This document shows positions 6,852 to 10,330 of a DNA stretch of 64,000 nt, one piece after another. A program made the translations under genes and the position numbers. The stretch is from an uncultured Eubacteriales bacterium (GTDB lineage Bacteria > Bacillota > Clostridia > Oscillospirales > Oscillospiraceae): NCBI GenBank assembly GCA_900314485.1, contig OMVL01000001.1, positions 22,327-86,326 on the forward strand, read 5' to 3'. Below the pieces are notes generated by a model, which had not been told where the DNA came from, made no database searches, and saw only the letters and a list, made by a program, of their open reading frames with translations. The stretch's first letter is position 1. The number at the start of each line of letters is the position of its first letter.

Positions 6852-7523
6852 ATGAATCTATTTGACATTATTATTTTGGCCGTCCTGGTCATTTTCACTC
6901 TGATGGGCGCCCGAAAGGGACTGATTATGACCATCTGCGGCCTGGTTGCGGCAGTGCTGGCCCTGACCGGCGCCAGACTGGCGGCAGATCAGTTTTCACC
7001 CGCTCTGGCCTATGCCATCGAGCCCAGTATTCGTGATGCGGTCTATTCCCAGATGGAGACCTCTGTCTCTCAGCAGACGGAAGGTCAGCAGCCCTTTCAA
7101 TGGGAAGAGGAGGACGGCGGCCTGTTGGAGCAGATTTTTGATTCTGACTTTTATCAGTACTTCATCGACTCGGTGGAGGTCACAGTCCAGGATCAGGTCC
7201 ACCAGGTCACAGCAAATGCCGCCGATGCGGTTGCGGCCTCTCTGGCCCGGAGCGTTGCATGGCTTTCGACCTATCTTCTGGCCTTCCTCCTCATCCTCTT
7301 TGCCGGCCACCTGCTGGGGCGGGCGCTGGATCTGGCGGCCCGCTTGCCCGGACTGCGGTTTGTCAATCGCTCCCTGGGCGGGCTGTGCGGCTTTTTACAG
7401 GGGGCGGTCATTGCGGCGGTGATCTGCTCTCTGGGCGTGGGCTTTGGCCTGATCCCCAAGGAGAGCGTGGAGAGCAGTACCCTTTTGGCGCTGTTTTCCG
7501 CATTCAGTACCATTTCCCTGTGA
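6852..7523 (+). CDS. CvpA-family membrane protein
   Basis: The 223-residue protein starts with MNLFDIIILAVLVIFTLMGARKGLIMTICGLVAAVLAL, the hallmark opening of CvpA/colicin V production-type proteins: a helix, a glycine-rich ARKGL turn and a second helix. Two further hydrophobic stretches follow at about residues 137-155 and 178-200, with a hydrophilic insert at about 58-110. The family has roles in surface remodelling but no settled biochemical function. It follows the DUF5711-like gene by 12 nt and is the last gene before the clpE promoter region. Confidence 0.8.
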   Translation: MNLFDIIILAVLVIFTLMGARKGLIMTICGLVAAVLALTGARLAADQFSPALAYAIEPSIRDAVYSQMETSVSQQTEGQQPFQWEEEDGGLLEQIFDSDFYQYFIDSVEVTVQDQVHQVTANAADAVAASLARSVAWLSTYLLAFLLILFAGHLLGRALDLAARLPGLRFVNRSLGGLCGFLQGAVIAAVICSLGVGFGLIPKESVESSTLLALFSAFSTISL

Positions 7524-7528
7524 TGAAT

Positions 7529-7556
7529 TTGCGAAAAGACGAAATTTGTTCATAAT
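7529..7556 (+). promoter_or_regulatory. Putative promoter of the clpE leader
   Basis: TTGCGA (7529-7534), a 16-nt spacer and CATAAT (7551-7556) lie just after the CvpA stop codon. If used, transcription would begin near 7563 and give a leader of almost 200 nt. No CtsR-type heptad repeat or CIRCE element was found around it. Confidence 0.4.
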
Positions 7557-7602
7557 TTTGTGATAAGCTAACAAAAAACTGGCGAGTCAGCTCCGTCTAT
7601 CA

Positions 7603-7617
7603 GGAGGAATCGTGTGA
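7603..7617 (+). promoter_or_regulatory. Start-stop element in the clpE leader
   Basis: GGAGG (7603-7607) sits 4 nt before a GTG codon (7612-7614) that is immediately followed by TGA (7615-7617). A ribosome starting here would have a stop codon in its A site at once. Start-stop elements of this kind are known regulatory uORFs in some genes. Whether this one is used is inference. It is followed by a 6-bp hairpin (GATCAC 7620-7625 with GTGATC 7629-7634) and another (CTGCGG 7660-7665 with CCGCAG 7671-7676). Confidence 0.35.
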
Positions 7618-7684
7618 CAGATCACGCTGTGATCGCATTTGAGGCGTACTGCTCACCCCCTGCGGGGCAACCGCAGCGCATGCC

Positions 7685-7762
7685 AAAATCTCCATCTGCC
7701 GCTTATGGAGATTTTTATTGTGATCGGTGCTGACATGAAGCGGCAGAATGGAGATTTTTATG
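7685..7762 (+). promoter_or_regulatory. Putative RNA switch covering the clpE ribosome binding site
   Basis: The segment 7685-7704 is complementary to 7738-7758 over 20 bp with a single bulged A at 7747, forming a hairpin with a 33-nt loop that would bury both GGAG (7750-7753) and part of the region up to the ATG at 7760. The first 11 nt (AAAATCTCCAT, 7685-7695) can instead pair with 7705-7715 in an 11-bp hairpin with a 9-nt loop, leaving the ribosome binding site free. This is possible because ATGGAGATTTTTAT occurs twice, at 7705-7718 and 7748-7761. The structures are mutually exclusive. A role as thermosensor or attenuator is inference. Confidence 0.6.
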
Positions 7763-10330
7763 CAGCCTGTACTGTGTTCGAAATGCCATAAAAATATGGC
7801 TGTGATCTTTGTCACGAAAATGGAAAACGGGGAGTCCAAGAATGAGGGCTACTGCCTGAACTGCGCCAAGGGAATGGGCATTAAGCCTGTGGATGACCTG
7901 CTGAGCAAAATGGGTATCTCAGAGGACGATGTGGAAAACCTGACCAATGAGATGATGTCCGCCTTTGGCGGCCCCGAGGCGCTGGAGTCCATGATGGAAA
8001 ACCAGGGGCAGCCGGTGGAGGATGACGACGAGCAGGAAGAGGGCAAGACTGCCACCTTCCCCTTCCTCAGCCGCCTTTTCGGCGGCCAGAACAGCCAGAA
8101 GGAGGATGCTCCCTCTGCCAATCCCGGCCGCAAGCAGGAGCAGAACGGCCGCAAGGACGGACCTGACCCTAAAAACCAGAAGCGGAAGTTTTTGGAGAAC
8201 TACTGCATCTGTCTGACCCGGCGCGCCCGCGAGGGCAAGCTGGACGGCGTCATCGGCCGGGACGAGGAGATCGCCCGTGTCATGCAGATCCTGAACCGCC
8301 GCCAGAAGAACAACCCCTGTCTCATCGGCGAGCCCGGCGTGGGTAAGACCGCCATCGCAGAGGGTCTTGCCCTGCGCATCGTCTCCGGCAATGTGCCCTA
8401 TAAGCTGGTGGACAAAGAGGTCTATCTGCTGGACCTGACCGCCCTTGTGGCCGGCACTCAGTTCCGGGGTCAGTTTGAGAGCCGGATGAAGGGGCTGATC
8501 GAAGAGGTCAAGCGCATCGGCAATATCATCCTTGTGATCGACGAGGTCCACAACATCGTGGGCGCCGGCGACGCAGAGGGCTCCATGAACGCCGCCAACA
8601 TCCTCAAACCCGCCCTCAGCCGTGGAGAGATCCAGGTCATCGGCGCCACCACCTATAACGAGTACCGGAAGTATATCGAAAAGGATGCTGCGCTTGAGCG
8701 GCGTTTCCAGCCCGTCAATGTGGCCGAGCCGTCTATTGACGACACTACTAAAATTCTGGAGGGTATCGCCCACTTCTATGAGGACTACCACCAGGTCATT
8801 ATCCCCAAGCCGATCCTCCGCAATGCGGTGACCCTCTCCGAGCGATACATTACCGATCGGTTCCTGCCGGATAAGGCCATTGACCTCATTGACGAGGCAT
8901 GCTCGGATGTCAACCTGCACAACAAGACGCTGGCCCGTCTGGCTGCCATCCACAAGGAGCGGGCGGACCTTGCCAAGGAGCGGGAGCTGATTCTGTCCGC
9001 GCAGGAGCAGCAGTCCACCGAGCGCTCCGCCAGGCTGAAGGAGAATGAGCAGAAGCAGTCCCGCTGCCGCCAGCAGCTCAGCGCCATCAACCACGAGGCC
9101 ATGAGCCTGCAAAACGACCTGTCTATTGACTCCCAGCGCCGGGAAGAGCGCCTGCGCCTGATCAGCCAGCACTCAAACCAGCTGCGCAGTGAGCTGCAGG
9201 AGCTGCAGGATGAGCGCAGTGCCCTTCAAAACGTCCCTGAGGACGACCGGGGCTACGAGCGCATTGCTCACCTGCGCAGTCTGGAACTGCGTCTGGACGA
9301 GGAGGAGGCCGCCCTCAACGAGGTGGGGCGTCCCACCCTGGAGCTGGAGAATCTGGCTCGGGTCATCGAGCTTTGGACCAATATCCCCGCCAGCCGCATC
9401 CAGGAGGAGGAGTTTGCCCGCCTGAATGAACTGGACACCCGGCTGAAACAGCATATCATTGGCCAGGACGAGGCGGTGGACGCCGTCACCCGTGCCATCC
9501 GCCGCAATCGTGTGGGCATCTCTCCTAAGCATAAGCCCGTCTCCTTCATCTTCGTCGGCTCCACCGGCGTGGGTAAGACGGAGCTGGTCAAGCAGCTGGC
9601 CCAGGACCTGTTTAACAGTCCTGAGTCCCTCATCCGTCTGGATATGTCGGAATTTATGGAGAAGCATGCCGTCTCACGGATCGTCGGCTCTCCTCCCGGC
9701 TATGTGGGCTATGATGAGGCCGGGCAGCTGACCGAGAAGATCCGCCGCAAGCCCTACTCCGTGGTCCTCTTTGACGAGATCGAAAAGGCTCACCCTGACG
9801 TACTGAACATCCTGCTTCAGATTCTGGACGACGGCCAGATCACTGACGCCCACGGCCGTAAGGTCAATTTTGAAAACACTGTCATTGTCATGACCTCCAA
9901 CGCCGGCAGCGGCAGCCAGACAGGCAGTGTGGGCTTCGGCCGCTCCGCTCAGGAGCAGGACAAGGAGAAGACGATGAAGGCCCTTCAATCCTTCCTGCGG
10001 CCGGAGTTTATCAACCGTGTGGACGAGATCGTCCACTTCAACCGGCTCAGTGAGGAGAACTTTAAGGGCATTACGGGCATTATGCTCCGGGAGCTTCAGG
10101 CCTCTCTCCGGGAGAAGGAGATTGACTTCACCTGGGACGACGCTCTGGTGGAATACCTGACCCACAAGTCCTATTCCGTGACCTACGGCGCCAGGAATCT
10201 GCGCCGTCTGATCCAGAAGGAGCTGGAGGACGAGATCGCTCAGTATCTGATCCAGCACTATGAGCATCCGATCAGCAAGCTGACCGCCACCGTCCGGGAG
10301 GACAAGATCGTCCTCGCAGGCGAGTGGTAA
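7760..10330 (+). CDS. clpE: ATP-dependent Clp unfoldase, ClpE type with N-terminal zinc finger
   Basis: This AAA+ unfoldase feeds proteins to ClpP. From the ATG at 7760 it has 856 residues. Residues 6-35 form a zinc finger C6-x2-C9-x22-C32-x2-C35, the ClpE signature, in place of the ClpC N domain. A Lys/Gln-rich linker follows, then the first AAA+ domain (Walker [10 protein letters not shown]), a Glu/Arg/Gln-rich coiled-coil middle domain at about residues 390-530, and the second AAA+ domain (GSTGVGKTE). SVGFG in the second domain fits the ClpP-docking loop. An in-frame ATG at 7748 has no good ribosome binding site, whereas GGAG at 7750-7753 is 6 nt from 7760. ClpE is stress-induced in B. subtilis; here the leader suggests control at the RNA level. 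Confidence 0.93.

Follow-up and report, generated by a model that had tools for sequence, protein, structure and literature searches.

The stretch of DNA analysed here (the window; 64,000 nt of an uncultured Eubacteriales bacterium) contains on its forward strand a gene that we take to be clpE, on account of the CxxC motifs at the N-terminus of its product. The protein matched two AAA+ domains and the ClpB D2-small domain in Pfam; no NCBIfam equivalog matched it at its cut-off. The start codon was placed at the ATG at 7760-7762, preceded by a GGAG at 7750-7753, because the orthologues begin MQP or MKP. The features of the gene and its leader are collected in Table 1.

Table 1. Features of the clpE-like gene and its leader (positions in the window)
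Feature	Position	Strand	Basis
Box TTTGTTCAYAATTNNNTGNTA in the clpE promoter region, common to the clpE leaders of many relatives	7545..7565	+	Leader comparison; genome search
AGGAGG in the position of the native Shine-Dalgarno (SD) sequence (cf. L002)	7602..7607	+	Leader comparison; identity presumed
Upstream frame, GTG start, 39 codons, TGA 7731-7733	7614..7733	+	ORF reading
Weak hairpin A, GATCAC-GCT-GTGATC, 6 bp	7620..7634	+	Sequence; under hairpin-score threshold
Conserved core stem	7643..7684	+	Covariance models R1 and R2; family covariation
Left arm of hairpin B (strand opposing the ribosome binding site)	7685..7704	+	Repeat comparison and folding
Proximal (decoy) copy, partner of 7685-7695 through 7705-7715	7705..7718	+	Repeat comparison and folding
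Distal arm, A7747 bulged, with clpE SD GGAG 7750-7753	7738..7758	+	Repeat comparison and folding
clpE-like gene: N-terminal CxxC motifs, two AAA+ domains, D2-small domain	7760..10330	+	Pfam, orthologues

An earlier note on this DNA had described, just before clpE, one left arm with two alternative partners, one of them able to bury the ribosome binding site (RBS), and both pairing and folding confirmed this. The 14-nt sequence ATGGAGATTTTTAT is present twice in the window, at 7705-7718 and 7748-7761, the copies being 100% identical. With the first copy the left arm forms a proximal hairpin of 11 pairs (7685-7695/7705-7715), and with the second a distal hairpin of 20 pairs (7685-7695/7748-7758 plus 7696-7704/7738-7746, with A7747 bulged); both foldings are as that note had written, all pairs are Watson-Crick, and the GGAG of clpE lies buried within the 20-bp distal hairpin. 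The second copy had been said to hold both the GGAG and the start codon; it does include the former, but it ends within the ATG. The arrangement was also judged there to be unlikely by chance. On folding, the stretch 7670-7775 (106 nt) reached -43.7 kcal/mol versus -26.67 (sd 3.22) for dinucleotide shuffles (z -5.29; none of 200 as good). For the longer stretch 7563-7790 (228 nt) the signal was weaker (z -2.45; 2 of 200 shuffles as good). Each state alone has a predicted energy of -10.9 (proximal) or -28.3 kcal/mol (distal). In minimum-energy folds of an RNA growing from 7640, the left arm lay on the proximal copy when the RNA ended at 7712-7744, the tested left-arm base was unpaired with either copy at ends 7748-7752, and the left arm lay on the distal copy from end 7756 onward.

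The leaders of 24 clpE loci of the genus, the window included, were compared; one further genome provided a fragment and was left out, and the leader of L004 is incomplete, ending at a contig edge. Model R1 (see below) found the conserved core that precedes the hairpin in one of the 24, that of the window. Most of the other leaders are short, with a plain RBS at the 3′ end; those of L013, L022 and L023 are longer, without the core. A leader conserved at clpE was rejected, the other 23 loci reading without the element, and the clpE-specific device of the earlier note falls with it: the conservation in relatives expected there is missing at clpE loci and was found at other genes instead. In the leader of L013 an ACTCC could, by eye, pair with either a nearby GGAGT or the GGAGT of the RBS; this is perhaps an independent, weaker two-way hairpin.

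The closest relative, L002, encodes a protein with 92% identity to the window ClpE. In a MAFFT alignment the two loci are homologous through the promoter region as far as AACAAAAA, after which the leaders diverge. The box TTTGTTCAYAATTNNNTGNTA of the promoter region was present at a single site per genome in the four genomes searched, each time at clpE, and might serve as an operator. In agreement with the earlier note, which saw neither CIRCE nor CtsR sites in the leader, no CIRCE-like site with up to three mismatches was found in the 64-kb window, and CtsR-like sites occurred there at chance level (15, versus a chance mean of 11.94), none of them in the leader. No CtsR gene was detected in the window genome at E<=1e-3, in a search that was positive in only one of 14 control genomes.

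Where L002 has its SD, the window has an AGGAGG; since the leaders align poorly beyond AACAAAAA, its identity as the native SD of clpE is presumptive. The 6 nt that separate it from the GTG at 7614 equal the SD-to-ATG spacing in L002, and this GTG and the L002 ATG are one column apart in the MAFFT alignment. The frame led by this SD spans the core and the left arm of the switching hairpin. Its 39-codon peptide had no match in Pfam, and a conserved upstream peptide was rejected by eye across homologues; the length of the core loop differs among copies, which shifts the reading frame. Some 145 nt (approximately 7615-7759) separate the presumed old initiation site from the current start of clpE, and from the compared sequences we read them as a probable insertion between the old and new start signals of clpE. 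On its 5′ side the element has the AGGAGG in the native position and, on its 3′ side, a second start of clpE, whose neighbouring SD is now supplied by the end of the element. The core, the element boundaries, the AGGAGG and its frame were overlooked in the earlier note.

The core sits immediately upstream of the two-state hairpin (hairpin B), which is the 3′ part of the element. In the window it pairs GGC with GCC and GUACUGC with GCAGCGC (with one A.C mismatch and one U.G), and CCCC with GGGG in an inner hairpin; UC (7653-7654), AACC (7669-7672) and AU (7680-7681) are unpaired. The layout in the family is a stem of GNC plus 7 bp, an unpaired UC, the inner hairpin, AACC, the 7-bp return strand, AU and GNC. 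A covariance model of 13 sequences (R1) gave the window copy 61.3 bits, a circular score given that this copy is part of the model. The model R2, built without the window copy as an independent check, matched 7633-7684 with 46.2 bits (E 3.9e-10), its sole match in the 64-kb window, and also detected L300, L169, L292, L161, L196 and L138. Covariation was assessed over 151 distinct cores, which remained of 170 listed matches after one with an N and 18 identical ones were dropped. Paired cells made up 96.9% (shuffles, 79.4), both partners had changed in 275 cells (shuffles, 60.6) and double changes occurred in 13 of the 14 pairs (shuffles, 8.9), with none of 500 shuffles reaching the core values for pairing, two-sided changes or double-change pairs; these figures are inflated by the relatedness of the copies and by the fitting of rows to the structure. 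The changes include replacement of a whole stem, from UUUUGC to UGCCGC (L300), and the unpaired bases were kept in 141 (UC), 139 (AACC) and 136 (AU) of the 151 cores. Non-standard cells were G.U in 27 cases and A.C in 24; with such near-equal numbers nothing marks RNA over DNA. A divergent core variant, GACCGGTCTGC...GCAGCCCATTGGT, adjoins what by eye resembles the end of a tRNA gene at two loci of one genome (L322 and L323 of G196), possibly a further subfamily. Rfam 15, searched with window positions 7300-8100 at E<=5, returned four matches (E 1.5-4.6), all far below gathering, three of these chance-level matches being miRNA families on hairpin B; ten element loci searched at E<=0.05 gave two matches far below gathering, away from the cores.

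The element before clpE (7643-7758) belongs to a structured repeat family whose copies were found in a single bacterial order and in a few phage-like contigs. A part of the presumed insertion was matched elsewhere in related genomes and on one phage contig. Of 394 genomes sampled in the order, 41 (from 26 of 168 genera) had the core according to R1, often in several copies; one genome carries at least 14, with a tandem spacing of about 110 nt, while the window genome has a single copy. In a sample of the phylum, the core was present in 2 of 398 genomes, that of the window and one of the same family. A pattern scan of a named collection of 84,980 species yielded 85 stretches, 80 of which were taken as loci. 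Their titles name Oscillospiraceae, Ruminococcaceae, Clostridiales, Clostridia or genera that include Oscillibacter, Pygmaiobacter, Pseudoflavonifractor and Colidextribacter, the exceptions being two entries titled 'uncultured bacterium' (L231, L249) and one Hyphomicrobiales (L237). R1 matched 78 of the 80, all except L195 and L237. Among the carriers is the cultured Pseudoflavonifractor capillosus An386a. A plasmid collection gave no match to the element and a phage collection gave one record with a match. The copies read are a non-random sample of the family, some of the listed matches not being included. Tandem arrays of three to five core units of about 110 nt each were observed in L153, L178, L155 and L156, the units of L153, L178 and L156 containing TATAAT-type sequence. 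On an IMG/VR contig, a core copy (L121, 2188-2241) lies between what we take, by reading and recall, to be an Avd-like gene and a stretch like the template repeat of a diversity-generating retroelement (DGR), with a presumed reverse-transcriptase-like gene downstream of the repeat; L241 (Colidextribacter sp. OB.20) is near-identical to L121, and the two were treated as one site.

The core is commonly flanked by hairpins. When ungapped, near-perfect arms only were scored in 161 copies, with a threshold of 9, the upstream hairpin A reached it in 126 and the downstream hairpin B in 93; both did so in 73 copies and at least one in 146. A plain-shuffle control gave 0 for A and 0 for B. The arms fall into groups with TATAGTAAACG, with TTATTACTNCGG, a promoter type with TATAAT, one with GAAACAAGTTTC plus TTATGACCATT, and single forms; the labels used for groups (P, M1, M2, L1) reflect rough sequence patterns, and their assignment varies between analyses. 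In several copies the outer arm looks, by eye, like native flank: the end of the upstream gene in L292, L169 and L298, a terminator T-run in L297, L315 and L317, and elsewhere a -10 box. TAWAAT is present on both sides in 31 of 168 copies, 17 of which also match in at least five of the six preceding letters, tandem units included. At L099 and L165, the start of a gene that we take to be rnhA-like is found on both sides of the element. Gene sense was counted in the first match list only (115 copies after length filters), using ORF lists taken longest-first, with no gene finder. Among copies outside ORFs, the next gene had the same sense in 19 of 35 copies of the M1 and M2 groups, and in 23 of 27 promoter-type and 6 of 6 GACCATTCC-type copies, some of the latter two types being tandem units of one site.

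By a loose rule applied to 163 copies, namely that hairpin B abuts a start codon, 20 copies have the leader form seen before clpE, though the rule may admit chance ORFs (for example, L210, L240 and L241). The nearest homologue, L300 from another genus, has a proximal copy and a left arm almost identical in sequence to that of the window, and a single base is bulged in its distal arm, as in the window; the exact pattern common to it and the window is present in 2 of 394 genomes, that of the window included. By matches below the cut-offs, the gene downstream of L300 resembles that for the gamma/biotin-carrier subunit of methylmalonyl-CoA decarboxylase; the gene after L169 is presumably 2-oxoacid oxidoreductase-like. 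A left arm, a proximal copy and a distal copy with the RBS were recognized by eye, in other letters, in L300, L169, L292 and the GACCATTCC group.

The duplex energy of each left arm with its own RBS was compared with that of swapped partners in 81 of 167 unique copies (84 have an SD plus start, three of them too short). Among 80 swaps, the own pairing ranked 0 for the window, L300 and L161, 1 for L169 and L196, and 5 for L292; four copies of uncertain start (L210, L147, L132 and L170) also ranked 0 or 1. Over all 81 copies, the own pairing was no stronger, 48 of the 81 lying at or below -10 kcal/mol versus 63% of the swaps. General RBS burial across the family was rejected by this test, and burial therefore belongs to the leader form, not to the family. 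An upstream SD plus start was present at the expected place in 9 of the 20 leader-form copies and in 3 of 143 others (Fisher p 1.7e-7, a guide only, as the copies are related; the window was scored by a GTG at 7612 that stops at once, not by GTG 7614). By the rule used, 11 of the 20 lack it. In the window, the frame that crosses the core ends 26 nt short of the gene start, and in L169 15 nt short of it; the core-crossing frames of L300 (ATGA) and L161 (TAATG) overlap the start, and that of L196 adjoins it. The upstream frame stops before the core in L148 and L227 and, by reading, inside it in L304; that of L198 stops 62 nt before the gene, that of L306 enters the gene in frame, and those of L161 and L306 would need a CTG start. 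This survey covered 161 copies, and core-crossing frames were also present in nine that were not counted as leader form; some such frames are therefore due to chance.

The pncB leaders of six species of the genus (G003, G016, G017, G020, G041 and G042; L034-L037, L054 and L067) have an upstream hairpin followed by AGCGGCAGAATGGAGATTTWTATG, and share up to 24 identical nt with the window's distal arm and clpE start. They may represent another landing, or may have donated the RBS end. A search of the six pncB loci with R1 yielded no core (one chance match, E 5.9), and no AGCGGCAGAATGGAGATTTWTATG-type motif was found in the pncB leader of the window genome itself. A link through pncB to NAD-type riboswitches was rejected: four loci searched against Rfam at E<=1 gave two matches, both far below gathering.

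The family has several copies per genome at unrelated sites in some genomes, as small interspersed, or MITE-like, repeats do. It might be a selfish intergenic repeat of no regulatory benefit, with hairpins that serve DNA mobility (recognition as single-stranded DNA or cruciforms) and an RBS hairpin that is a tolerated side effect. The copy number and tandem spacing point this way, as do the M1 and M2 subfamilies, which share arms at unrelated sites with no orientation bias, the parity of G.U and A.C cells, and the frequent presence in the arms, by eye, of flanking gene, promoter or terminator sequence. However, the promoter-type and GACCATTCC-type copies are mostly or always followed by a gene of the same sense, the choice between proximal and distal partners is preserved with changed letters before several genes, and visual inspection of a single 2.6-kb interval (G012) showed no transposase-like ORF that might act as an autonomous partner. 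We consider this explanation unlikely, while giving it real weight. A riboswitch, in which the core binds a molecule or protein that chooses which hairpin forms, is more doubtful still. A covarying stem whose unpaired UC, AACC and AU are so well kept, directly before the switching arm, would suit such a role; against it, many copies have no same-sense gene after them, and the downstream genes, which we take, mostly from recall, to be clpE, fmt, rnhA, def, a biotin-carrier subunit, gyrB-like and others, seem unrelated and unsuited to a single metabolite. The core covaries, and an RBS-linked platform is present in a minority of copies, the 20 of 163 mentioned above. Lastly, the RNA thermometer, one of the options offered in the earlier note and suggested by a buried RBS before a clpE-like gene, is very improbable, since in the folding model each GGAG base has an unpaired probability below 0.01 from 25 to 70 C and the element is missing from the other 23 clpE loci.

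The hairpin before clpE is a real feature, and is better explained as a copy of an unrecognised structured repeat with a leader form able to switch an RBS than as a clpE thermosensor. Of the three triggers proposed earlier (temperature, a ligand or the ribosome), control by the ribosome fits best because an SD-led frame crosses the element. The frame across the switching arms that characterizes leader-peptide attenuators is present in the window, and not in all homologues. We favour, tentatively and as a possibility somewhat short of probable, a structured repeat with a ribosome-controlled switch, in which reading of the upstream frame would free the clpE start. At rest, the 20-bp distal hairpin would form and clpE would be little translated. 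Ribosomes initiating at the old site, GTG 7614, would read the 39-codon frame through the core and left arm, melting the hairpin, and would stop just short of the distal arm, at the TGA at 7731-7733. In their wake, the left arm would fold on the proximal decoy, leaving the GGAG at 7750 free for the translation of clpE, the output of which would track upstream translation. The core may bind a tuning factor and, in other copies, may serve the spread of the element itself. A broader and more speculative proposal, which we regard as improbable, is that of a mobile riboregulator that would land on expression signals (a -10 box, or the gap between SD and start) and leave the signal duplicated on its two sides; its leader form would bring a two-state RBS, and the decoy would tie the captured gene to translation from the old start, or to a factor bound to UC/AACC.

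Translational attenuators of the ermC type combine an upstream frame with mutually exclusive hairpins, the RBS being buried by default, and the switch proposed for the window would follow the same logic. Unlike them, the window element has a non-conserved peptide and belongs to a repeat located at unrelated genes, and we know of no drug-stalling peptide for it. In two-hairpin riboswitch platforms one strand picks between two partners, one of which contains the SD; unlike these, the window element has no known aptamer and its family precedes unrelated genes. Among interspersed repeats, the BOX elements of Streptococcus pneumoniae are described (PMC3049150) as short, with strong RNA structure, as forming co-transcribed 5′ extensions of operons, and as believed to be mobile and to influence expression. 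The window family resembles them as a short structured interspersed repeat; compared by description, not by sequence, BOX elements differ in their boxA-B-C modules and host, whereas the family described here has one core with UC, AACC and AU, variable flanking hairpins and a subset with its own RBS and decoy. The MRSC-65-2 motif is, according to PMC11109978, likewise structured, multi-copy, covarying and possibly active as DNA; it consists, however, of one long stem with UYCCGG repeats and occurs in diverse phyla, while the core of the window family has an internal loop and a bulge and was found in one order in the genome samples. The motif-catalogue passages of PMC11109978 and PMC8632094 describe no such core. 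No description of it was found in the literature searched, and one may still be in print, as supplements and most subscription papers lay outside the scope of the search.

The covarying core, with its conserved unpaired bases, provides a defined target in the search for a partner, be it a protein, the ribosome or a recombinase. If the favoured reading is true, about one tenth of the sampled genomes of one order carry a repeat whose leader form rewires translation starts, which would provide a concrete path for regulatory RNA switches to arise and spread among unrelated genes.
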